Shown here: in pieces, positions 1,691 through 51,197 of the stretch | Layout: every line of letters starts with the position of its first letter | Numbering within the stretch: the first letter of the stretch is position 1 | The notes under the pieces: generated by a model | What the model was told of the DNA's origin: nothing | The model's input: only the letters and a program-made list of their open reading frames with translations | Databases searched by the model: none | Virus record (IMG/VR): IMGVR_UViG_3300005663_000062 | Coordinates: 1 to 51,197 of that record | Source: a virus | Reading direction: 5' to 3' (one strand) | Length of the DNA: 51,197 nt | Position numbers and translations under genes: made by a program

Positions 1691-3244
1691 TTAAACCTCT
1701 TGCTTATACATCTTAATTGTTGTTACAAGATTATGTTTTGCATCAATAAAATCGGGACACATTGTTAATACTCTGTGCAGGCATTCGACGGCTCGTCTAT
1801 ATTCACCATTTATTGTATAACAAGCCGCCAAATTCATTAAAATGTGTATATGGTTAGGACTGCATTTTCTCGCGTACTCGAAAGACTCTAATGAATTATC
1901 TAAATCTCTCTTTGTTAGAAATGCAACTCCACGATAATAGGCCAGCGGCATTCCAGCCCTGTCAAGATTGGCTAAGAATGGTAAATTATCTGTTACCGAT
2001 ATAACTCTGTCCCAATTTATATTTCTGGCACGATATATTTCCACGCTCTTCATAGATGTCTGAAGTTTTATAGTAAATCCAATTACGCACAATACAAGAA
2101 GCGCGATAGCACCGGCCGTATAAACTCTCTTAAACTTAATCAAAGCAGGTTTGTAATCTTTCATAGCAAGGGCAAAGAATATCATTAACAAAAACCACAG
2201 ATACGCCCTATGGCTCGGAAACGTAAAACAAGCGAAGGTTATATAACCAGCTATTCCAGCCCTTATTGCTCCACGACTGTAATATAGAGCTAAAATAAAG
2301 AGCAGTAAGTAGCTTGCAAATCCAAATATTCCTATTTCTGACCATTCCTGAAGAAAGTCGTTATGCGCCCATCCGATAAGTTTATTTTCACCATTACTGC
2401 CAATCTTATAATTTATATTTGCCCTCGTTTCCGGAGATGAATACTTTGCGTATAGCGGGAATATCAATTTCCAGTTTCCAGCACCAACTCCGGCAGGATA
2501 GTCCTTAATCATAATTGCAGTCTGCTTCCATATCTCTAATCTCTGCCCTAACGAACTGGTATTGTAGATGTCATTGCCTTTGCAAACTATAACCCCTAAT
2601 AGCAATAGGCCGCACAATGAAGGAATAAGATATTTCCTGTTAGATAAAGCAAATACTATCAATGCTGCGAATAACGCTAACCAGCTCGAACGCGCTCTGA
2701 GTGAGATTATCACAAACAAACTTAATCCAATAGCTACTAAAGAAGGAATCTTCCATTCTTTGTAGTAGTAGCTGCACAGTATCATCAAAAGCACAATGGA
2801 TGCAGCATTGAGATTCTTGCTATCCATTATCCCGACCCTTACTGCAATTGATTTAGACGAGAACTCATAAATACCATACAAGCCAAGGCATATAGTTGTC
2901 AGAATAATGACCTTGGCAATATTCAATTTCTTCAAGAGAGTTGCCAAACAGAGCATAATCAACATTGCATTGAACATTGAAAATGACCGGGAAATACTCT
3001 CGCCTTTATTAACAGCGAAACATATCGAATATGTCAGCCATAACCAGTAAGCTAAGTATGCGAGAAATACAGGATGCTTTAAGACGCCGAAATCTACTTT
3101 TACGAGAACTAAAAGCATTAGCGTCATTACGCCAAGCATTAACTGCCTTGCGGCCAAGTCACGACCATCTACATAACCATCAACAGAGACGGCGAGACAA
3201 AGCACTAATCCTGCAATAAAAACTATATTGGCACACCTAAGCAT
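1691..3244 (-). CDS. O-antigen ligase/polymerase-like membrane protein with C-terminal TPRs
   Basis: About 517 residues with roughly ten hydrophobic segments. Wzy_C/O-antigen-ligase features: RARSSWL near residue 183, GVGAGNW near 252 and AHNDFLQEWSEIGIFG near 293, in a large periplasmic-loop context. Residues about 430-515 form TPR-like helices (YRGVAFLTKRDLDNSLESFEYA; then LAACYTINGEYRRAVECLH). Members transfer or polymerise undecaprenyl-linked glycan at the outer face of the inner membrane. Start chosen at ATG 3244 with GGTGGA upstream; the frame stays open to 3298. The gene overlaps the small membrane ORF upstream by 22 nt. It sits among capsid and tail genes, a remarkable place for host-envelope cargo. 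Family call confident, acceptor unknown. Confidence 0.85.
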   Translation of the reverse strand: MLRCANIVFIAGLVLCLAVSVDGYVDGRDLAARQLMLGVMTLMLLVLVKVDFGVLKHPVFLAYLAYWLWLTYSICFAVNKGESISRSFSMFNAMLIMLCLATLLKKLNIAKVIILTTICLGLYGIYEFSSKSIAVRVGIMDSKNLNAASIVLLMILCSYYYKEWKIPSLVAIGLSLFVIISLRARSSWLALFAALIVFALSNRKYLIPSLCGLLLLGVIVCKGNDIYNTSSLGQRLEIWKQTAIMIKDYPAGVGAGNWKLIFPLYAKYSSPETRANINYKIGSNGENKLIGWAHNDFLQEWSEIGIFGFASYLLLFILALYYSRGAIRAGIAGYITFACFTFPSHRAYLWFLLMIFFALAMKDYKPALIKFKRVYTAGAIALLVLCVIGFTIKLQTSMKSVEIYRARNINWDRVISVTDNLPFLANLDRAGMPLAYYRGVAFLTKRDLDNSLESFEYARKCSPNHIHILMNLAACYTINGEYRRAVECLHRVLTMCPDFIDAKHNLVTTIKMYKQEV

Positions 3245-3384
3245 CGAAGAATCCACCAAAATAAGGCTATCAGGAAACAAATAAGGCAAAGAGGCCAAAG
3301 AACTAATACTGCACCAAAGACAAATATAGTACGTATAACGTCTTTGGCCTCTAAACTATGCCTATTCTGTACAGGATAAGCCAT
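3223..3384 (-). CDS. Small membrane protein, 53 residues
   Basis: ATG at 3384, stop TAG at 3225-3223. The middle is a long hydrophobic stretch (IRTIFVFGAVLVLWPLCLI then CFLIALFWWIL) that could be one or two membrane segments. It starts two bases after the secreted beta-helix gene and its 3' end overlaps the ligase start by 22 nt, so the two are likely translated together. AGGAAAAG lies upstream at rather long spacing. It may assist the ligase in the membrane, like small Wzx/Wzy partner or Gtr-type proteins in seroconversion cassettes; this is inference from position. Confidence 0.6.
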   Translation of the reverse strand: MAYPVQNRHSLEAKDVIRTIFVFGAVLVLWPLCLICFLIALFWWILRCLGVPI

Positions 3385-3386
3385 TT

Positions 3387-4424
3387 TTAATTCTTTTCCT
3401 GTTGGGTTAACGGCGGTTGTCGAGTACCGGAAACATCAACTGCTATACCGACATAATTCTCTATTAACATCATCGAACCTGGGTCGATACTTGTAGCAGT
3501 CGCATTAGTAGCGATTGTGTTATAAGTAATCAATCCAGTAGCCGCTGCGGTGAACTCAATAGCATGCTGTCCTGCTGTCTTATTCCGAATTATATTTCGA
3601 GATATTACAGCATCTTCATCAACGGTATCAGACCATATCGCTGAAATCGCAAATTCGCCCTGTATATCGTTACCGACAATCTTCATATTATTATTAGCTC
3701 CATTACCAGCCTCGATAAAGTGATTCGGGCCGGTAGTTGAAGTATGCCGATAGATACAGTTGTAAATTCTGAAATCATTTGCTCCTGCCGCGAGGTCGAT
3801 AGCGTCAAGAAACGCATCTGTTATAAAGGCTGGCTCAGGCCATTCACAGGCAATGATAGTGCAATTGTCACCTGCCGCTTCTACGCTGATTCCCATTGTT
3901 ATCTCTGTGCCTGTAACGAAACGCAAGTTGTATATGACAATATTTGCAGCGCCTACGACGAATTCGCCTGCCAATGCCTCATAGGTAAAAGTAGGCATGT
4001 CAGTACCCTTGCCAATGCCAATAACAGTAATGCCTGCGGTAGTTAAATCAACTGCGTCGGCGGCGCTCAATGTCTCGCCATGGTTTTGAGCAAGCATGAT
4101 ATAATCGCCTCGATTGGCTCCGCCATCGGCAAGACTTAGAACGTCAGCCTCTTTGAGAGTTATAACAGCCCTTGAAAAAGACTTGCCATCGCCGCTTACT
4201 GACCTTCCAGAATTCACATACCATATCTTTCCGAGTCCAAGTTGTCCGCCGACTTCGACCGCAGCCTGTATTTCCTGTGCCCATATCGTCGCCCTGTCCT
4301 TTTGGGGATGGCCGCCCCATTGATAACCGTTGTTAAACGTCTGCCTGTCAGCGGCGTTGTAAGTCAGAGCATGTACAGGTACGCACATAGCCAAAATGAC
4401 TATGATAAATAGTAATCGTTTCAT
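3387..4424 (-). CDS. Secreted right-handed parallel beta-helix protein
   Basis: 345 residues. Begins with a clear Sec signal peptide (MKRLLFIIVILAMCVPVHA, probable cut after VHA). The mature part has the pattern seen in phage beta-helix virion proteins and secreted polysaccharide-binding helices: IWYVNSGRSVSGDGKSFSRA, GDYIMLAQNHGETLSAADAV, then successive rungs (ITVIGIGKGTD, IVIYNLRFVTG, CTIIACEW, FRIYNCIYR, MKIVGNDIQG, AVISRNIIRN, GLITYNTI). Similar proteins are frequent near capsid genes; a Sec signal is unusual for a virion protein and would instead send it to the periplasm or surface. The start overlaps the glycosyltransferase stop by 4 nt (ATGA). Export versus virion role is unresolved. 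Confidence 0.75.
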   Translation of the reverse strand: MKRLLFIIVILAMCVPVHALTYNAADRQTFNNGYQWGGHPQKDRATIWAQEIQAAVEVGGQLGLGKIWYVNSGRSVSGDGKSFSRAVITLKEADVLSLADGGANRGDYIMLAQNHGETLSAADAVDLTTAGITVIGIGKGTDMPTFTYEALAGEFVVGAANIVIYNLRFVTGTEITMGISVEAAGDNCTIIACEWPEPAFITDAFLDAIDLAAGANDFRIYNCIYRHTSTTGPNHFIEAGNGANNNMKIVGNDIQGEFAISAIWSDTVDEDAVISRNIIRNKTAGQHAIEFTAAATGLITYNTIATNATATSIDPGSMMLIENYVGIAVDVSGTRQPPLTQQEKN

Positions 4425-5059
4425 TGTTTTACTCCTTTCTTGAGTAGTTGTAGTTTGTTTACGATATTCAGTAATCCAATATATTTTTCATGGTTGCATT
4501 TCACCAGAGGGTCACACCAGATGTCGTACCCGGCCTTGCGAGCCTTATCGCAGAAGTAAATGTCCTCACCCATTTCAATACCACCGGGAACGAAAACATT
4601 CTTCCAGTAAGGCCATTCCAGAGCTTCAAAGACTTCGTACTTGATAAGTGTTACACCAAACCCACCGGATACTATCTTAAATGGGTTTCGAGGCAGGTCG
4701 TCAAGTTCAATGAACAATTCATCCCTCGATACCGACCATCGTATCTCACCTTTTTGTGTCATTGGATAAACACCCATAACGATGTCTTTATCTAACTCTT
4801 TCAGTTTCTCTAAAGTGTTCTTCTTCGGTAAAACGTCAGCGTCGAGAAATAAGATGTGGGTAGGCTTGGGTATCCTGTACTTTGCGTGCTGAATTGCCAT
4901 ATCACGCCCGACTTCAGGCTTGGAAGAAACTGGATGATATATTTCAACCATCTCCTTAGTGTATTCCCAAAACGATAGAGTCTCTTTTAAGCGTGAATCA
5001 ATTTTATAATCCTGGCCAAGCGGAACGCTGACAAGAATGGGCCTATCCAAATAAATCAT
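4421..5059 (-). CDS. GT-A fold glycosyltransferase (GT2-like)
   Basis: 212 residues, soluble. A strand-rich N-terminus (PILVSVPLG) is followed by the nucleotide-sugar metal-binding motif in ILFLDADVLPKK (DAD at 73-75), an acceptor-type loop VSGGFGVTLIK at 130-140, and the C-terminal EDIYFCDKARKAGYDIWCD (165-183) with His190, the usual order in phage GT-A enzymes. Such enzymes modify host surface glycan or decorate virion proteins. It lies 9 nt after the Bbp16-like cement gene and is coupled by ATGA to the secreted beta-helix gene, forming a cassette with the ligase. Donor and acceptor cannot be read from sequence. Confidence 0.8.
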   Translation of the reverse strand: MIYLDRPILVSVPLGQDYKIDSRLKETLSFWEYTKEMVEIYHPVSSKPEVGRDMAIQHAKYRIPKPTHILFLDADVLPKKNTLEKLKELDKDIVMGVYPMTQKGEIRWSVSRDELFIELDDLPRNPFKIVSGGFGVTLIKYEVFEALEWPYWKNVFVPGGIEMGEDIYFCDKARKAGYDIWCDPLVKCNHEKYIGLLNIVNKLQLLKKGVKQ

Positions 5060-5068
5060 ATTATCTCC

Positions 5069-5521
5069 CTAAATATTAGACGTTGAAACCTGAGTATCGT
5101 AAGACGACTGCGGGCCGTGGTCTAACCACGCATTCAGTGCGCCTGTCACAGTTCCGGTTGCGACGACTGCTACTGCTAAAAATCGCCTGTCGTCAACATT
5201 TACAGGCAAAGGCACACGTAACAGCCATTCACCGACAGCTATAGACGCTCCTATCGTTCTCGCACCTGAAGACAGAACAATAAGACTGGAGCTATCCTGA
5301 CCTCCGGCGGCGGTGTCAGCTAAAAGCCGAATATCAATAGTCGTACCCGTAATAGCTGTAGTCCCGACTCGTACATTCAGCCAGAGAGGTTCGCCTGCAC
5401 CCATTTCAAGGTCAGCCGCCTGCCAATCTATAGTCTTTGCGGTACCACCGATTGTAGTACCGTTCGTAGTAGTGATTGTCAGGTCGTCCATAAATTCGTA
5501 CATTATATCATAAAGAGCCAT
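5069..5521 (-). CDS. Bbp16-like capsid cement/decoration protein
   Basis: 150 residues, all-beta. It matches the look of the Bbp16 family of podovirus capsid cement proteins: a short N-terminal helix, AKTIDWQAADLEMGAGEPLW, LNVRVGTTAITGTTIDIRLL, GEWLLRVPLPVNVDDRRFLA and a closing strand with TGTVTGALNAWL. The gene directly follows the major capsid gene (14 nt gap), the standard place for this family. It would sit on the capsid surface and stabilise it after expansion. No export signal. Confidence 0.75.
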   Translation of the reverse strand: MALYDIMYEFMDDLTITTTNGTTIGGTAKTIDWQAADLEMGAGEPLWLNVRVGTTAITGTTIDIRLLADTAAGGQDSSSLIVLSSGARTIGASIAVGEWLLRVPLPVNVDDRRFLAVAVVATGTVTGALNAWLDHGPQSSYDTQVSTSNI

Positions 5522-5535
5522 AAATGGCCTCCTTT

Positions 5536-6564
5536 CTAAGTTGTGACAATTGTTTCTGTCGTGTCGATTGCATCCAGTCGTCTCACCGGCATATCGTGGA
5601 ACATTAACTGCGGCTGTCCGAAGGGATTGTTCGGACCCCAGAAGACGTTGACTTTGTCTTTGGCGAGAATCATTAACTGTACGAAAATGGTCTCATTAAC
5701 GTACATGTAAATCGTTCCCGGAGTCCTGTAATTGTAGCGGGTCTCGATAATCTTATCCTCGTCAAGCGTAGCTGCGTCCGTGGTTGAGTTGGTCGAGATA
5801 TTCGCCAGTCTCTTAACAGTTCTCGTATCCTCGATAGCCAGCCCGATGTCCCATGAAAATTCGGTGATATGTGCCCACAACTGCTTGTTGTTAGGCTCGA
5901 AGGACGGGGTATTGGAAGAAGAATCGGACAAGGTGTAGACCAGTCCCATGTCTTCTTTTTTGATACCGCCGCCTGTAGCGTTACGGGGATAGATTAAGTA
6001 AACGCCACCCGCTCGCCACTGGATGAACCAGATAGACGTTAGGGATGCGCCTGTACCTGCCGTAGCACCGTTGTTAGCCACATAAGCCGACCTTGACGTA
6101 CTAAGAGTGTTGTACCTCGCCAAGAGGCCGTCAAACTCTTCAGGAGGCTCCGCTGTCTTATTTCCGGCGACCATAGTATTAGCGAACTCCTGACCCATAG
6201 CCTCGATGTGAGGACGTTCCTGCTGCTGACGGAACTTGGCGGGATTCGGCTGGAGTCTCATAACATCGTCAGGGCATTGATACCTCGCCTTTTGCTGAGC
6301 GATTGTCTCTCTGACCTGATTCAGACGGCCTGCGGTGGCGTTCCAGCCCTCGCCTATCTTCACCCATGAGGGCTTAGGAAGTGCGGTACGCCTTGAGACT
6401 ACGTGTGAGGTAATATCATTAGCACGCTGAACGACAGCGTCCTGAATGAGATCGTTGGTTTCGTTCAATACTTCCGCTACGTCGATGATCTCCTGATTAT
6501 GAGTCATCCTCGCAGCGAGAAGCATGTTTTCTCTTTGGTTAATATCACTACTTGAAATAGCCAT
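5536..6564 (-). CDS. Major capsid protein, BPP-1/GP7-like HK97-fold group
   Basis: 342 residues. Features of the GP7/Bbp17-type capsid family in order: N-terminal AEVLNETNDLIQDAVVQRAN, TALPKPSWVKIGEG, the long linker NPAKFRQQQERPHIEAMGQEFANT, PPEEFDGLLARY, SIWFIQWRAGGVYLIYPRN and HITEFSWDIGLAIEDTRTVKRLANI, then C-terminal YMYVNETIFVQLMILAKDK. It forms the icosahedral shell. Length is normal for the family. GGAGCC precedes ATG 6564. Upstream lies a 116-bp spacer and then a sulfotransferase-like gene, which separates it from its scaffold gene; normally these are adjacent. Confidence 0.88.
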   Translation of the reverse strand: MAISSSDINQRENMLLAARMTHNQEIIDVAEVLNETNDLIQDAVVQRANDITSHVVSRRTALPKPSWVKIGEGWNATAGRLNQVRETIAQQKARYQCPDDVMRLQPNPAKFRQQQERPHIEAMGQEFANTMVAGNKTAEPPEEFDGLLARYNTLSTSRSAYVANNGATAGTGASLTSIWFIQWRAGGVYLIYPRNATGGGIKKEDMGLVYTLSDSSSNTPSFEPNNKQLWAHITEFSWDIGLAIEDTRTVKRLANISTNSTTDAATLDEDKIIETRYNYRTPGTIYMYVNETIFVQLMILAKDKVNVFWGPNNPFGQPQLMFHDMPVRRLDAIDTTETIVTT

Positions 6565-6680
6565 GATTAGGCTCCTTTCGCATTAAAATTCAAATTGTCG
6601 TTTTTGCGTAGGAGCTATCCTGTCAAACGCAGGCTGCTACTTCACTTTTAGCCGTGATATGCTTTGGTCTTACCAGCAAC
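6565..6680. other. Spacer between sulfotransferase and capsid genes
   Basis: This 116-bp stretch has no ORF. It contains complementary blocks TGCGT/ACGCA and GTAGGAGC/GCTGCTAC (one mismatch) around 6604-6650 that could form a small structure in the capsid mRNA leader. No convincing promoter was found: a TTGACA-like hexamer in the minus strand has no matching -10. The ribosome site AAAGGAG for the capsid gene is at its left edge. Its existence as an unusually long gap in a tightly packed operon suggests a processing or control site, by inference. Confidence 0.4.
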
Positions 6681-7397
6681 TCAGGCCCCTTGGGGCTGTC
6701 CTGAGCTTTGTATTGATTCCTCTCTGTCCCTTGCGGGAGAGTAACCATATTGTAAATGTTTGTCATATACCTTCCGGGCCAACTCCCTATTACATGCGGA
6801 GAGTTGCTCCCAGGTAAACGTCGTTAATTTCTTACACAAACAAGAGTTATTAGTTTCTCTTGAATTTCTTTCTTTTATATCGGGTAACGACTCAAATGGA
6901 TGGTCTATCCTTTCGAGGAATTCAGGCCATACATCCGACAAGTCCTCCAGCCTGTATCGCCATACACAAAACTCTTCCAGTAACTCATTCCATTTGAGCC
7001 AGTATTGCATACAGCCTAAAAGTCCTCTTCCATGACACTCGATGACATGATTCATAAAGCCCCATGCCTGATGGTCAAACATTGACGCTATCTGTTTCAG
7101 TGGATGCCGTACCTGATGAAAACAGTTATCAGGTTTTATAATAGCCAGATGATAACCGACAGAGCCATCGACATCAGTTTTTTCGTGACCTATTTTGTAT
7201 CCTAACTTCTCCAATACCCTCGTCATGTAAATAGTGCCTGACCTTGCACACGCCGCCACGTATATACCCTTACCAGTAACCTCGCAGCCTTTATATTCCC
7301 AGACCGGTTCGCCGCGTCTATTCTTTACATACGCACCATCTTCAGATATTTTTACCGGTGCGCCGCATCGAGTTATAACTGGTATTTCAATTCTCAT
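6681..7397 (-). CDS. Sulfotransferase-like P-loop protein
   Basis: 238 residues. The PAPS-dependent sulfotransferase signature is visible: a 5'-phosphosulfate-binding loop in GIYVAACARSGTIYMTRVL (ARSGT at 51-55) and a 3'-phosphate-binding segment in CFHQVRHPLKQIASM (residues 92-106). Later residues (QYWLKWNELLEEF, YRLEDLSDVWPEFLERI) fit the helical C-terminal half. Such enzymes sulfate sugars, peptides or lipids in the cytoplasm or Golgi-like settings; in phages they are taken to alter surface glycans. The start overlaps the scaffold stop as TAATG. Its place between scaffold and capsid genes is odd. Substrate unknown. Confidence 0.75.
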   Translation of the reverse strand: MRIEIPVITRCGAPVKISEDGAYVKNRRGEPVWEYKGCEVTGKGIYVAACARSGTIYMTRVLEKLGYKIGHEKTDVDGSVGYHLAIIKPDNCFHQVRHPLKQIASMFDHQAWGFMNHVIECHGRGLLGCMQYWLKWNELLEEFCVWRYRLEDLSDVWPEFLERIDHPFESLPDIKERNSRETNNSCLCKKLTTFTWEQLSACNRELARKVYDKHLQYGYSPARDREESIQSSGQPQGA

Positions 7398-8146
7398 TAA
7401 TACACATGCCCCTGAGCCACAAAGAATGCCCTTGCCTTCTTGGATTCGTCATCGTCCCCGTTCCTGTACATACCGGGAGATTTAGGATATTGAGGTTTGT
7501 ATTCAGCTTCCGTTTTATCGCCTTTCTGGTCGCCTTTTACAAAAGTATCAGTTGCAATCCTTTTGGCAAAGCTGAGAAACTCTTTAACGAATACGGGATG
7601 ATTATGCAGTCCGCTGTCAACTAACACCTGCCTGAATTCTTTACTACAATCGTTAGTTACAAACCTGTCGGCCAACTCAAAGTTGACATCATAATCATTT
7701 TTCCATTCGTCCTGTAATGACTTTTTCGCAACCTCCAGAGATTGTATAGATTGCTGAGACAATTCATCAAGCCAATTTCGCATAACAGTTTCCACTGCTA
7801 TCTTCGGCGCGCCTGTATCAAATGCCCATTGTTTAATTTTATTAACCATTTCCTGGTCGATAGGCACATTATCAGGCACTGTTATCTCGTAACCTTCCGG
7901 GGTATCGACACCTCTGATTTTGGCGTAGAAAGCCGAAACCTCTTCTTCGGGAGCGCCTTCGCCGGGTATCTTGATTTTGCCTGATGCCGACTTCTGGAGT
8001 TCACTGTAATCTCTTATCGCATCGTTAGGGTCTTTCCATCCCTGCTGAGTTACCAGTTCGGCATTCTCATCAGAAAACCAAGGGGCTGCTACTGCCGCAC
8101 CCTCTACCGTAGTATCTGTCATTAAACTTGATTCTGGTTCTGGCAT
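7397..8146 (-). CDS. Capsid scaffolding protein
   Basis: 249 residues, acidic N-terminal half and charged helical C-terminus, no cysteine-rich or enzymatic motif. Recognisable podovirus scaffold features: WFSDENAELVTQQGWKDPND (proposed partner-recognition 'GWK/GFK' segment), SELQKSASGKIKIPGE, FYAKIRGVDTPEGYEI, then a helix-rich region with LQDEWKNDYDVNFELADR and a C-terminal end with YPKSPGMYRNGDDDE. It would direct capsid assembly and then exit. ATG 8146 is chosen because AAGGAAG lies at good spacing; an internal ATG at 8122 forms TAATG with the upstream stop but lacks a ribosome site. Confidence 0.8.
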   Translation of the reverse strand: MPEPESSLMTDTTVEGAAVAAPWFSDENAELVTQQGWKDPNDAIRDYSELQKSASGKIKIPGEGAPEEEVSAFYAKIRGVDTPEGYEITVPDNVPIDQEMVNKIKQWAFDTGAPKIAVETVMRNWLDELSQQSIQSLEVAKKSLQDEWKNDYDVNFELADRFVTNDCSKEFRQVLVDSGLHNHPVFVKEFLSFAKRIATDTFVKGDQKGDKTEAEYKPQYPKSPGMYRNGDDDESKKARAFFVAQGHVY

Positions 8147-9546: not shown

Positions 9547-11292
9547 TTACACGCCTACCGCCTCTCCTATCGCCGCCAGAGGCGAGCCTTCGGCTGTTTC
9601 GCCTTGTAACTTCGGTACGCTGTCAGCCATCTGCTGAGCTTCCTGTAAAGCCTGCTGTCTTGCCAACTCCTCTGCCCGTTGCTCTCGTATCTCTTCGACT
9701 TGTGCCGTTGACCTCATACCCTCCTGTGGGAAATCACTCGCATCAAGTAGGGCTTCGCTGAGCCAGTCTTCATCCACTCGGTCAACTATGTTCGGAAACA
9801 GAACTGAAGCCTCTGCAATTTCTCGCAACCCGTTCTTTATTGGCTGTAATATAAAGAGTCTTCTTTGCGCCTGAGCGAGTGGGCCGGTGAAACGGACGCT
9901 GATTTTAGTCCTTTGATTGCCACGCTCCTTTTCCTCTTCGATTCTGTCAACTAATATCTGGGGCGGCTCAGGTAATCTTCCTGCCTTATTTTCAATATCA
10001 GCAACAATATCGAAGTTCTTACTAAGGCCATCTTCTGTGAGTCTATCGACCTGCGGCCCCATTAACTGCGCCTGCTCGGATTTTATCTCTATAATCTCGG
10101 TAGCCGTGGCCTCGCCCTGCCTTCCGATAAAGGCGTTGAAGAACTCCACCCTGTATCCACCGTTGATGAATCTCTCGTAATACTGCTCTCTGTCGAGACC
10201 TACGGGGAAATTACTTCCGGGGTTAATGACCTCTATCTTATCTCCGCCTCTTTCAAAGTAGTTGTTACCGTCAGCGTCCATTCTCACATGACCCCTCTGG
10301 GCTTCAGGGACGTTACGCGCGGGTCTTACCGCTAACTGTGAAGCCTGCAACAGGGTCTTACTGATAGTATTCAACTTTTCAATCGCTACCATGAAGTCCA
10401 TTGCCGGAGAGTAACCGTAGATTTCGTCGCTATTTTTCCTGAATCTCCACACAGCGTAAGGGAATACATCGTAGCCACTCTCTTTAACGATGAGGTCATT
10501 CATGCCGTCACCTACGCCAGCTAAAAGAATCTCCGAAGTCTGGTTGGGATCGTTAAAACCTCCGGTCGAACCTTTGGTCTGGACGTAAACCGACTTGAAC
10601 TTCTTATTAGTTGAAGTGATAGAACCGAACTGAGGTTCATCGTTGGGATAGACCGCATGGATGAATTCGTGTTTCTTCTCAGGATTGGAAATGGCGTTCT
10701 GAGTAATATCGTTAGTCAGTCTGTTCTCGTCGAACATCTGCACAGCCTGTCTTGCGGTTAGGAAGAACTTCCTGAAAAGGACATCGACGTTCTGAAACTT
10801 ATTCTCGGCAATAAAAACTTCTCTCAGGTGGATAGGTATGTGGACTGTCGTACCGCCTTTAATATCCTCCTCGACGTACATCGTAGCCGTTCCAATCGAA
10901 CCTGCATCGTTAAACCATTCATTCAATACAGAGTAGAAGTTCGACCTGTCGTAAGCGGCGTACATCGCCTCGTCGTATTCCTGTAAGAATATTCTCACCT
11001 CGTCAATATCGTTCAGGGTATGGTCGCTCATCTCAGACTTGAACCATCTGAGAGACTTCGATACCATGAAGCCCTGCATCCCATCCCGCCATATCCCCAA
11101 AGCACTCGCAGGGGTCGGGTCGAATATCGCCTTACCTCTCTTCTGACCCTTCTTATCGTTTCTCGAAGAGTCTCGTATCAGTTCCCTTCTGGGATTGGTA
11201 AACGAAGCCGCCTGCTGGATAAGAGGCTCGTAGTCCCGCTTGACCTCTTCAAGTTGTTTCTGTCTCAGTAAGATTTGTCCCTGACCGCTCAT
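9547..11292 (-). CDS. Portal protein (head-tail connector family)
   Basis: 581 residues, the usual length for the T7 gp8-like head-tail connector family. Motifs in order: KRDYEPLIQQAASFTNPRRELI, PTPASALGIWRDGMQGFMVSKSLRWF, LNEWFNDAGSIGTATMYVEED, then YPNDEPQFG, YPFAVWRF-type segment FPYAVWRFRKNSDEIYGYSP, RPARNVPEAQRG, and GRQGEATATEI. Twelve copies form the genome gate. The C-terminal 60 residues are Glu/Gln-rich coiled coil. Start ATG 11292 overlaps the upstream stop by 4 nt. Confidence 0.92.
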   Translation of the reverse strand: MSGQGQILLRQKQLEEVKRDYEPLIQQAASFTNPRRELIRDSSRNDKKGQKRGKAIFDPTPASALGIWRDGMQGFMVSKSLRWFKSEMSDHTLNDIDEVRIFLQEYDEAMYAAYDRSNFYSVLNEWFNDAGSIGTATMYVEEDIKGGTTVHIPIHLREVFIAENKFQNVDVLFRKFFLTARQAVQMFDENRLTNDITQNAISNPEKKHEFIHAVYPNDEPQFGSITSTNKKFKSVYVQTKGSTGGFNDPNQTSEILLAGVGDGMNDLIVKESGYDVFPYAVWRFRKNSDEIYGYSPAMDFMVAIEKLNTISKTLLQASQLAVRPARNVPEAQRGHVRMDADGNNYFERGGDKIEVINPGSNFPVGLDREQYYERFINGGYRVEFFNAFIGRQGEATATEIIEIKSEQAQLMGPQVDRLTEDGLSKNFDIVADIENKAGRLPEPPQILVDRIEEEKERGNQRTKISVRFTGPLAQAQRRLFILQPIKNGLREIAEASVLFPNIVDRVDEDWLSEALLDASDFPQEGMRSTAQVEEIREQRAEELARQQALQEAQQMADSVPKLQGETAEGSPLAAIGEAVGV

Positions 11293-26488: not shown

Positions 26489-26703
26489 TTCTCCTTACGC
26501 CAATACTTGTTTGCACATTTTTGGTAACGAAATAACTTATCAGCTATCACCCAGTACAGCATGTCCTTCTCAGGCCACCACCCGCAGCCACAGGCACACG
26601 CTACGTCTTCGATAGGCTTGCACTGCTCTTGCTCCCGTTTGGCAGCCTTAGCGAGCTTGCGGGCACGTTCACGGTCTTGGATGGAGGTGTGTTTCTTCGC
26701 CAT
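26485..26703 (-). CDS. Small basic protein with CACGCGWW zinc-type motif
   Basis: 72 residues. Basic start (RERARKLAKAAKREQEQC), then ACACGCGWWPEKDMLYW and KCANKYW. Coupled by TAATG-type overlap to the YopX gene. Unknown. Confidence 0.6.
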   Translation of the reverse strand: MAKKHTSIQDRERARKLAKAAKREQEQCKPIEDVACACGCGWWPEKDMLYWVIADKLFRYQKCANKYWRKEK

Positions 26704-27095
26704 TAGGATTCCTCATGTATGTGGCCGGTGACTTCAAGACTATACCATTCATACCAGATATTATCTGTGCTATCATCTGGCATATCTTCGACTTTTGTAT
26801 CTAAACGTCTTTGTGAAAAACAGCCTCCGTAGTAAACAACTTCAAAATCAACAGGATGGTCAAGGTGTTTGTGCGTATATCTTACTTTATCCCCCTCGTA
26901 AATCTCCACGCCGTTCTTGTCTTTGAGGCCGGTGTATTGTTCGAGGATAACATTGTATCCGTGTTCTTCTTTGCAGTCCTCGATGTCCTGAAGAAATTCC
27001 AATAGCGTCCTATCTTCTTGCATACTGTGCTTTTGTCCGGGCAATGTTTTGTTTTTGCCGTCCGTAAACCACGCTCTAACTTTTATCTCTCTCAT
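26703..27095 (-). CDS. YopX family protein
   Basis: 130 residues. REIKVRAW at the start, VILEQYTGLKDKNGVEIYEG DKVRY in the middle and SLEVTGHIHE at the end are the three blocks of the YopX family, a small phage protein group of unknown function. One of up to three such genes in this genome. Confidence 0.85.
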   Translation of the reverse strand: MREIKVRAWFTDGKNKTLPGQKHSMQEDRTLLEFLQDIEDCKEEHGYNVILEQYTGLKDKNGVEIYEGDKVRYTHKHLDHPVDFEVVYYGGCFSQRRLDTKVEDMPDDSTDNIWYEWYSLEVTGHIHEES

Positions 27096-27508
27096 TTCTT
27101 TGCCCTCAATTCGTTATACATAGATTTATACATGAGTCCGATACCGATTATCTTGCCGTGATAAGACTGGTTTTTGTCTAAAAATACCAATTTGTCATAT
27201 ACATCCTGCCCATATTTTTCTATTACAAATTCTTTGTAAACAGCTTCTTTGCCCTGATGAAAGCCGTTACAGTCCTTACATTGAGCATGAATATTCCGCT
27301 CATCAAAATAAACGCCACTTAAACCACCCCGGCCTTTGGGAATACAATGGCCTGCATCGCAATTCTTGTTATAGATAATTATTCTTGGACAGGTACAGCA
27401 CTTCACGTATCCAAAAGGCGTTTCTGGATATTGATTTTGATATTCTATCGCGTCCCTGAGCCGGATATACTTACTGCACCACTTCCATGCGGTTTTCTTA
27501 GCTGTCAT
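27092..27508 (-). CDS. NinG/Rap-like recombination protein
   Basis: 138 residues. YVKCCTCPRIIIYNKNCDAGHC, GGLSGVYFDERNIHAQCKDC NGFHQGKEAVYKEFV and DKLVFL match the NinG (Rap) layout of lambdoid phages: a CxxC, GH, RNIHxQCxxCN zinc/nuclease core. NinG aids phage recombination as a Holliday-junction endonuclease. Shorter than lambda NinG, as the C-terminal part is reduced. Confidence 0.75.
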   Translation of the reverse strand: MTAKKTAWKWCSKYIRLRDAIEYQNQYPETPFGYVKCCTCPRIIIYNKNCDAGHCIPKGRGGLSGVYFDERNIHAQCKDCNGFHQGKEAVYKEFVIEKYGQDVYDKLVFLDKNQSYHGKIIGIGLMYKSMYNELRAKK

Positions 27509-29834: not shown

Positions 29835-30256
29835 GGCTTCTCCTTGATGAGTTCGAGTTGAAGATAGCGAACGGCTAAACTGTTCAGTGGATATTTCAAT
29901 CCTCGTTTGCTTCTTTTCTTGATATAGTAACCCCCGTCATGGAATACGACGGTAGTCGTACCGTACATTCTTCTGAGCGTAGAGTTTTTACTTGGCGGTC
30001 TGCCGTTCAATGTCCTGTCCCCTATTTTTCTTGTCGATTGCAGGGTATCCCCCGCGAACACCTTATCGCCGTTCTTGTCGTCACAAACGTAGGGCAGGAT
30101 AGATAACTCCGTTATTTTGCAATTACATAAAAGTGGCGTAAATTCATTGTTACCATGCCAAGCCTCAAATGGATATTTTTGATAGAGAGGCTTTGCACCG
30201 TCGAATTTCATATACCCAACCGTCTTGCCGTCTTTCTTAAGTTTGAACAGGTTCAT
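29831..30256 (-). CDS. Diverged YopX-like protein
   Basis: 141 residues. ELSILPYVCDDKNGDKVFAG DTL resembles the central YopX block (TGLKDKNG..IYEGDi); the C-terminus LQLELIKEKP is short. First residues differ from the family. Next to a clearer YopX gene, so probably an old duplicate. Confidence 0.5.
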   Translation of the reverse strand: MNLFKLKKDGKTVGYMKFDGAKPLYQKYPFEAWHGNNEFTPLLCNCKITELSILPYVCDDKNGDKVFAGDTLQSTRKIGDRTLNGRPPSKNSTLRRMYGTTTVVFHDGGYYIKKRSKRGLKYPLNSLAVRYLQLELIKEKP

Positions 30257-30672
30257 TCCTTCTTTCCTTTGAGTAGTTCCGGGTTTTGATGGGCGTTGCC
30301 GATGATTTCAAAATCTATATAGTCATAAGTCGCAAGGGGGTATGAAGTCCGTCCATCGTCCCATTCAAAATAGACTCTCAGTTTTTTATCATCCCACTTG
30401 ACAATCCCTATATGTCCATTGTCGTCTTTGACCTTATCGCTAAAATAGCATTCTGTGTGCTTCTTATCCTTGAGGCCGACTTGCTGGCCTACTGTGCTTG
30501 GCTGGACTTCGATGAAATCTGTCTTGAGAAATAATATGTTTTTAGCGTTAATATCATCAGGTGAGGTAACAAACGGCACTATATAATGTTTATCTACAAC
30601 TTTAACATACCACCCATACACGAACTTCTTGCCGTCTATGGGGATGGCGCGGTAGGGTCTTGGATTGGTCAT
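30253..30672 (-). CDS. YopX family protein
   Basis: 139 residues. PYRAIPIDGKKFVYGWYV, STVGQQVGLKDKKHTECYFS DKV, HIGIVKWDDKKLRVYFEW and YIDFEIIGNAHQNPELL cover the whole family pattern. Function unknown. Start overlaps the upstream stop as ATGA. Confidence 0.85.
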   Translation of the reverse strand: MTNPRPYRAIPIDGKKFVYGWYVKVVDKHYIVPFVTSPDDINAKNILFLKTDFIEVQPSTVGQQVGLKDKKHTECYFSDKVKDDNGHIGIVKWDDKKLRVYFEWDDGRTSYPLATYDYIDFEIIGNAHQNPELLKGKKE

Positions 30673-50944: not shown

Positions 50945-51197
50945 TTACACTCCATACCGCCACCTCGTTTGTTCGTAGAAGTCTTTAACTTGAGCAGCAG
51001 TCCTCGCTGTAGTATAGATACGGACATCATCTATCTGGCCGTTGGCATATTTTGTGTCGTATCTACCTATGTAAACTGGTGCGGTGAGGTTTTCTACTGC
51101 TACAAACAAACCAGGATTGCTTTCGCTATCAGCATCATCAACTCGCAAACCATTCAGATATATTTTAATTCCAGAACTTAAAGTACCTCCATCATAA
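50945..51197 (-). CDS. LamG-domain virion protein, C-terminal part (joins 1-434)
   Basis: The frame enters at 51197 without a start and ends at TAA/TAG-type stop 50945. With the two bases left over at position 1 it reads T-YDGG, then SSGIKIYLNGLRVDDAD, VYIGRYDTKYANGQIDDVRI YTTARTAAQVKDFY, the second half of a LamG domain. Together with 434-1 it makes 687 nt = 228 residues plus stop. This shows that the window is a circular sequence opened within this gene. Confidence 0.85.
   Translation of the reverse strand, partial: YDGGTLSSGIKIYLNGLRVDDADSESNPGLFVAVENLTAPVYIGRYDTKYANGQIDDVRIYTTARTAAQVKDFYEQTRWRYGV

Follow-up and report, generated by a model that had tools for sequence, protein, structure and literature searches.

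Recurrence of a predicted exported beta protein beside a Wzy_C-family membrane enzyme in phages, with the virion operon of IMGVR_UViG_3300005663_000062 as the reference locus

Phage-borne membrane enzymes with a Wzy_C domain have been described in the serotype-converting units of D3 and epsilon15 (Iap and Wzy-beta), in which Wzy-beta is accompanied by a polymerase inhibitor (PMC4815439). In bacteria, dedicated O-oligosaccharyltransferases (O-OTases; TfpO/PilO, TfpM and PglS) are often encoded beside their substrate and outside lipopolysaccharide (LPS) loci (PMC3643930; PMC12645811), and the Wzy_C_2 family is used to recognise the O-OTases PglL and PglS (PMC12645811). We compared these systems, together with WaaL-type polymerases/ligases (PDB 7tpg and 7tpj) and the phrog_1574 glycosyltransferases of tailed phages, with a locus in the virion operon of the virus record IMGVR_UViG_3300005663_000062 (51,197 bases, the whole stretch analysed and hereafter the window), in which a Wzy_C-family enzyme (Wzy) is encoded downstream of a predicted exported beta-helix protein.

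Like the D3 and epsilon15 units, the locus has a phage-borne Wzy_C membrane enzyme and, beside it, a small membrane open reading frame (ORF) that may be comparable to the inhibitor peptide, and the epsilon15 capsid protein is related to that of the window (30.9%). Unlike them, it lies among the virion genes of a phage in which no integrase was detected, the enzyme carries a TPR tail and has an exported beta protein as its neighbour, and no acetylase was seen. The adjoining exported protein and the position outside glycan-synthesis loci are features held in common with the dedicated O-OTases, towards which a sub-threshold Wzy_C_2 match in one copy (L247) may also point; the locus differs from them in being phage-borne and in having no pilin, no known sequon and no detected PglL_A domain. 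The WaaL-type enzymes align with it in three motifs, whereas the window enzyme has the TPR tail and no LPS core locus nearby.

Recurrence of the beta protein and Wzy_C pair

A capsid alignment identified some 30 relatives of the window phage, most of them contig fragments. Seven phages with Wzy were assembled, namely the window, L002 and L123, plus L244, L246, L247 and L248 from a scan with a three-sequence Wzy alignment (51%, 32%, 31% and 25%, respectively). In all seven loci an exported beta protein is encoded directly upstream of Wzy, with a predicted signal peptide in every copy but that of L248, the start of which is cut off. Relative L002, whose capsid protein is 89% identical to that of the window, repeats the whole gene order (glycosyltransferase 53%, beta-helix protein 67%, small protein 49%, Wzy 42–45% identity), and beta-helix homologues also precede Wzy in L244 (59% over residues 61–337), L246, L247 and L248; in L123 the upstream exported protein has the common N-terminal module, with a different domain in place of the helix. 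The small hydrophobic ORF directly precedes Wzy in the window, L002, L123 and L244, and follows it in L246 and L248. The check proposed in the initial annotation, a search for the same arrangement in related phages, returned the complete order in L002 and the beta protein with Wzy in six phages besides the window.

The pair is also mobile. L244 has an N4-gp56-type capsid protein (TIGR04387, 1.9e-38), unlike the GP7-type of the window, yet keeps the helix protein, the small membrane ORF and Wzy, and in L246 the helix and Wzy genes stand before the portal gene rather than after the cement gene. Divergences of the helix and Wzy proteins correlate across six phages (r 0.73, Mantel p 0.035), which gives modest support. 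From these comparisons the real unit is judged to consist of an exported beta protein, a Wzy_C enzyme with a TPR tail and, in most cases, a small membrane peptide, which move horizontally as a putative late-gene module across unrelated capsid backgrounds.

The initial annotation had read four genes as one cassette, with a GT-A glycosyltransferase (GT) as its first member. The enzyme call itself holds on phrog_1574 (2e-20; Pfam matches were below cut-off) and on a DXD motif (D73, D75) that is, with D166, near-invariant in 18 homologues. Homologues are annotated as glycosyltransferases in cyanophages and mycobacteriophages, one lies within the structural genes of an archaeal virus, and there is a weak match (0.015) to the solved protein A197, a glycosyltransferase of the archaeal virus STIV. 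Membership of the Wzy unit was rejected. Among about 16 complete cement-to-tail intervals GT follows cement directly in nine and Wzy is present in three (window, L002 and L123), of which L123 lacks GT, and the L244, L246, L247 and L248 contigs gave no GT homologue. Because GT and Wzy are separable in this way, GT is best counted, by its gene context, as a recurrent capsid-operon gene outside the Wzy unit; its place directly behind cement in this phage group distinguishes it from phrog_1574 at large.

Profile searches supported the description of the last gene as an O-antigen ligase/polymerase with TPRs, the call on which the initial annotation had made its cassette depend. The window protein matches Wzy_C (PF04932) at 4.9e-13 (49.6 bits, cut-off 31.7), a cut-off that all seven phage copies pass, and TPR_1 at 8.5e-9. 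Invariant positions in the seven-phage alignment are R235, W239, P-x-GVGAGN (250–257), H294, E303 and G305, and the seven-copy profile finds the polysaccharide polymerase/ligase structures 7tpg and 7tpj at 6e-8, with the R-x-x-x-W, P..GVG and HND motifs aligned. R235 and H294, aligned with 7tpg, are the invariant counterparts of the WaaL catalytic-loop Arg and His (R288 and H338), an equivalence to E. coli WaaL numbering inferred from PMC3643930; the second WaaL Arg (R215 in E. coli) may correspond to R185, which is present in six of the seven copies and is Lys in L123. Downstream of the active-site loop, hydropathy indicates four spans in the window and L123 proteins, and in L002 only if a weaker span is counted, and the TPR tail is therefore predicted to be periplasmic. 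The tail of L247 also scores Wzy_C_2 (PF11846; 4.3e-6, 27.3 bits, under the cut-off of 28.5). Ligase, polymerase and oligosaccharyltransferase are, as far as sequence can tell, inseparable for this enzyme. Novelty was compared against PHROGs and 50,697 phage records, and the window Wzy had no match among the latter.

The nearest cellular Wzy homologues are mostly from Bacteroidota (approximately 22–30% identity). However, Shine-Dalgarno-like motifs precede 35 of the 50 window genes (background 18%), a frequency that speaks against a Bacteroidota host; the capsid search yielded no genome relative for host assignment. Six loci of distant cellular Wzy_C/TPR homologues from Bacteroidota and Fibrobacterota (L171, L173, L178, L181, L183 and L184) adjoin a similar exported protein, the start of which reads ...SISP..G..GQ.L.I.I.G.NT; the L184 neighbour fails the signal-peptide rule.

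The exported beta protein and its N-terminal module

For the protein described as a Sec-exported beta-helix, the signal peptide was read by motif, in agreement with the initial annotation. No Pfam family was assigned, the L002 homologue has a weak match to NCBIfam beta_helix_1 (0.0036), and the structure prediction was of low confidence (predicted local distance difference test score, pLDDT, 48), with one significant match in BFVD and nothing at E<=0.001 in a Foldseek search of PDB. Of the checks that had been suggested, family searches identified Wzy and GT, and structure prediction gave a poor model for this protein. H115 and E117 are invariant in eight homologues.

At this position, the protein of 14 relatives starts with a signal peptide and that of eight does not. 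A hidden Markov model (HMM) built from the 14 signal-peptide versions finds six of the eight others at 3.8e-13 to 2.5e-5, with L102 at 0.004 and L108 at 0.026. The L123 protein would begin with AFTNSAD after the predicted cleavage, and in L125, where the protein is not exported, an internal start reads MAFTNSAD; it thus looks as if a cytosolic protein had gained the signal peptide, or an exported one had dropped it. Its presence was not significantly associated with that of GT (Fisher p 0.08). In L102 the protein is similar over its middle part to a minor head protein (phrog_19577), and the capsid gene of ctMEh928 (L013) is followed by a beta-helix homologue that has no signal peptide, both of which suggest a virion origin of the family that has this N-terminal module.

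In L017 (4811–8221) the place of the beta-helix is taken, behind the same N-terminal module, by an exported protein of 1136 residues made of tandem beta repeats. One-span proteins of about 87 residues, weakly similar to Rz spanins (0.0056), follow the exported beta protein at L017 8281–8550 and in counterparts in L104 and L106.

Gene layout and neighbouring features

A LamG-type ORF of 228 residues reads in frame across both window ends (1–434 and 50945–51197), and the window therefore fits a complete genome that is circularly permuted. The positions of the features are collected in Table 1. Coordinates and flanks of the four ORFs between cement and tail tubular A were as initially annotated: the GT and beta-helix ORFs overlap by 4 nt, the beta-helix and small ORFs nearly abut, and the 3' end of the small ORF overlaps the Wzy start by 22 nt. 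The likelier Wzy start is the ATG at 3244, in agreement with the start of the L002 homologue, rather than the listed TTG at 3298.

Table 1. Features of the virion operon in the window, with the evidence for each
Feature	Position	Strand	Evidence
Head-tail connector	9547-11292	minus	Pfam/PHROG profile scans
GP7-type capsid	5536-6564	minus	Pfam/PHROG profile scans
Bbp16-type cement protein (flank)	5069-5521	minus	Pfam Bbp16 2.5e-6
GT-A glycosyltransferase	4421-5059	minus	phrog_1574
Exported right-handed beta-helix protein (predicted), 345 aa	3387-4424	minus	Homologues directly upstream of Wzy in other phages
Predicted Sec signal peptide, cleavage after VHA (residue 19)	4368-4424	minus	Read from sequence; counterparts in L002, L021, L118, L123 and others
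N-terminal module, common to same-position proteins of relatives with and without signal peptide	4266-4367	minus	HMM
Small hydrophobic membrane protein, 53 aa	3223-3384	minus	Homologous or equivalent ORF immediately upstream of Wzy in L002, L123, L244
RNA hairpin within the small ORF (stem of 12-13 bp), located between beta-helix and Wzy	3290-3352	minus	Folding z-score
Wzy_C-family membrane glycan transferase, 517 aa, C-terminal TPR	1691-3244	minus	Pfam Wzy_C, TPR_1
Wzy_C domain (residues 171-313), including a long active-site loop at 222-303 that is presumably periplasmic	2306-2734	minus	Pfam and hydropathy topology
TPR tail, predicted periplasmic	1748-1840	minus	Pfam TPR_1 and membrane-span parity
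Tail tubular A-like protein (flank)	835-1689	minus	phrog_394 1.2e-27

The ratio of nonsynonymous to synonymous polymorphism (pN/pS) is below 1 for all four genes (GT 0.40, helix 0.30, Wzy 0.48, and 0.69 for the small protein, a weak value from 49 codons only). With the whole arrangement repeated in L002 and related ones in L123 and L244, these values rule out the assembly artefact or host DNA that the initial annotation had raised as a concern. Late expression of the cement-to-tail genes is something we infer from operon position only. Recombinases of the integrase and resolvase families (PF00589 and PF00239) were not found in the window, in which lysogeny was otherwise examined through profiles of the larger ORFs only.

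The hairpin inside the small ORF folds more stably than expected in the window (z -5.6), L002 (-4.0) and L244 (-3.5) and is absent in L123 and L247. Covariation, with one of 13 pairs changed on both sides, was not above shuffles. A terminator between helix and Wzy was rejected, as there is no T-run and the hairpin is missing from the terminator list; our guess is that it could set different levels of the helix and Wzy proteins.

In L102 the cement-to-tail slot (3133–8037) holds a GT-B/FkbM methyltransferase, a methyltransferase, a PIG-L deacetylase, a glycosyltransferase and WbqC (1.8e-50), and the L108 slot starts like this cassette. Between scaffold and capsid, the window encodes a P-loop protein whose motifs resemble those of sulfotransferases (RSGT..., VRHPLKQI.S; 6681–7397, minus strand), also present at this junction in L002 (6440–7864), L017, L018 and L020. 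It has no Pfam match and no counterpart among the phage records, its profile finds nothing significant in PDB, and its predicted structure is poor (pLDDT 35). In L002 it is preceded by an adenylylsulfate (APS) kinase (2.8e-16) that carries a nucleotidyltransferase-like domain as a fusion, a hint of sulfation dependent on 3'-phosphoadenylylsulfate (PAPS). Two YopX-family proteins (26703–27095 and 30253–30672) and a NinG-like protein (27092–27508) lie outside the virion operon.

Periplasmic glycan transfer and its possible acceptor

That the phage makes, late in infection, an enzyme of the Wzy_C type for glycan transfer in the periplasm is very probable, and this much is common to the two explanations that we consider foremost. 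In the one that we favour, tentatively, the beta protein would be made with the virion genes and pass to the periplasm by Sec, where the Wzy_C enzyme of the inner membrane would take a host-made glycan linked to undecaprenyl pyrophosphate and transfer it to the co-exported beta protein, held by the TPR tail; the two would thus be a dedicated O-OTase and its substrate, and the resulting glycoprotein would come to lie on the cell envelope, or on particles and debris once the cell lyses. The beta protein is favoured as acceptor because it is constantly adjacent to Wzy, as are the substrates of dedicated O-OTases in bacteria; acceptor and benefit are guesses. The fuller version, in which a virion-type beta protein that gained a signal peptide receives the host glycan and gives released particles or debris a coat of host sugar, is rather doubtful. 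No description of such a phage glycoprotein pathway was found, subscription literature being outside the search.

Several observations weigh against the beta protein as acceptor. No sequon or conserved Ser/Thr acceptor has been brought forward for it, and members of its family occur without Wzy (L118 and ctMEh928). PglL_A (PF15864) was without a match at E limits of 0.1 (window and L002), 0.05 (L123) and 0.01 (L244 and L246–L248), the Wzy_C_2 match is below cut-off and confined to L247, and the only experimentally known phage Wzy_C proteins that were found, those of D3 and epsilon15, are O-antigen polymerases. Exported neighbours of cellular homologues are modestly enriched (14 of 42, background 20%), and downstream ones alone number six of 20 (p 0.19), although six of the loci have a similar protein as their exported neighbour. 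Signal peptides and topology were read from motifs and hydropathy, with no trained predictor.

Nearly as likely as the beta-protein acceptor is a late surface conversion resembling that of D3 and epsilon15. The Wzy_C enzyme would then polymerise or ligate the host surface glycan in a different manner, the small peptide would, like D3 Iap, inhibit the polymerase of the host, and the beta protein would modify or cover the surface, the purpose being to block superinfection or to keep released phages off debris. It is kept as a close rival because the D3 and epsilon15 Wzy_C proteins belong to surface-converting units (PMC4815439), and the related epsilon15 capsid and the small hydrophobic ORF, directly before Wzy in four phages and after it in two, fit with it. 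No integrase or resolvase was found in the window, however, late placement leaves little time to convert a surface, and neither the TPR tail nor a constant exported partner belongs to the D3 unit as described. The initial annotation had proposed a surface-conversion system placed in late structural genes; an exported partner and a Wzy_C enzyme do lie in the virion operon and no PF00589 or PF00239 recombinase was found, for which reasons a lysogeny-only interpretation is not needed, but surface conversion is not the sole explanation, and the beta family also exists unexported beside capsid genes.

The remaining alternatives assign the helix or the GT a different part. An improbable one has the beta-helix acting as a polysaccharide lyase or epimerase on a Wzy-made polymer, as in exopolysaccharide loci, with host exopolysaccharide remodelled for release or spread; the invariant H115 and E117 and weak Foldseek matches to PL6 lyases and tailspikes point that way, but the matches are not significant and come from a poor model, the H-x-E may be a feature of the fold, an unexported homologue adjoins a capsid gene, and L123 keeps Wzy with a different beta domain. 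We give little credence to the cement-to-tail slot as an accessory-gene hot spot, in which helix and Wzy would be neighbours by history and each serve host cell or phage separately: the slot is occupied in L102 by glycan genes of another kind and in L017, L104, L106, L110 and L115 by further exported beta proteins, yet helix and Wzy travel together outside the slot and in an unrelated capsid background. A role in glycosylating virion proteins in the cytosol, which has been proposed for the glycosyltransferases of mycobacteriophages, is very improbable. The position of GT beside cement and the major capsid protein, its annotated homologues, and the soluble glycan enzymes of L102 beside a minor-head-like protein are in keeping with it, and capsid glycosylation has been suggested for one mycobacteriophage (PMC11256854); it may suit GT, but it does not account for a multi-span membrane Wzy_C enzyme or for a signal-peptide protein.

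Lysogenic conversion is the setting from which Wzy-type enzymes of phages are known. Here one travels with an exported beta protein between unrelated capsid backgrounds, among virion genes that are presumably late, from which either surface conversion in the lytic phase or phage-made periplasmic glycoproteins would follow. The gain or loss of a signal peptide exactly at the start of one protein family bears on the exportability of virion-type proteins, and periplasmic glycosylation, if true, would give a reason to export such a protein.

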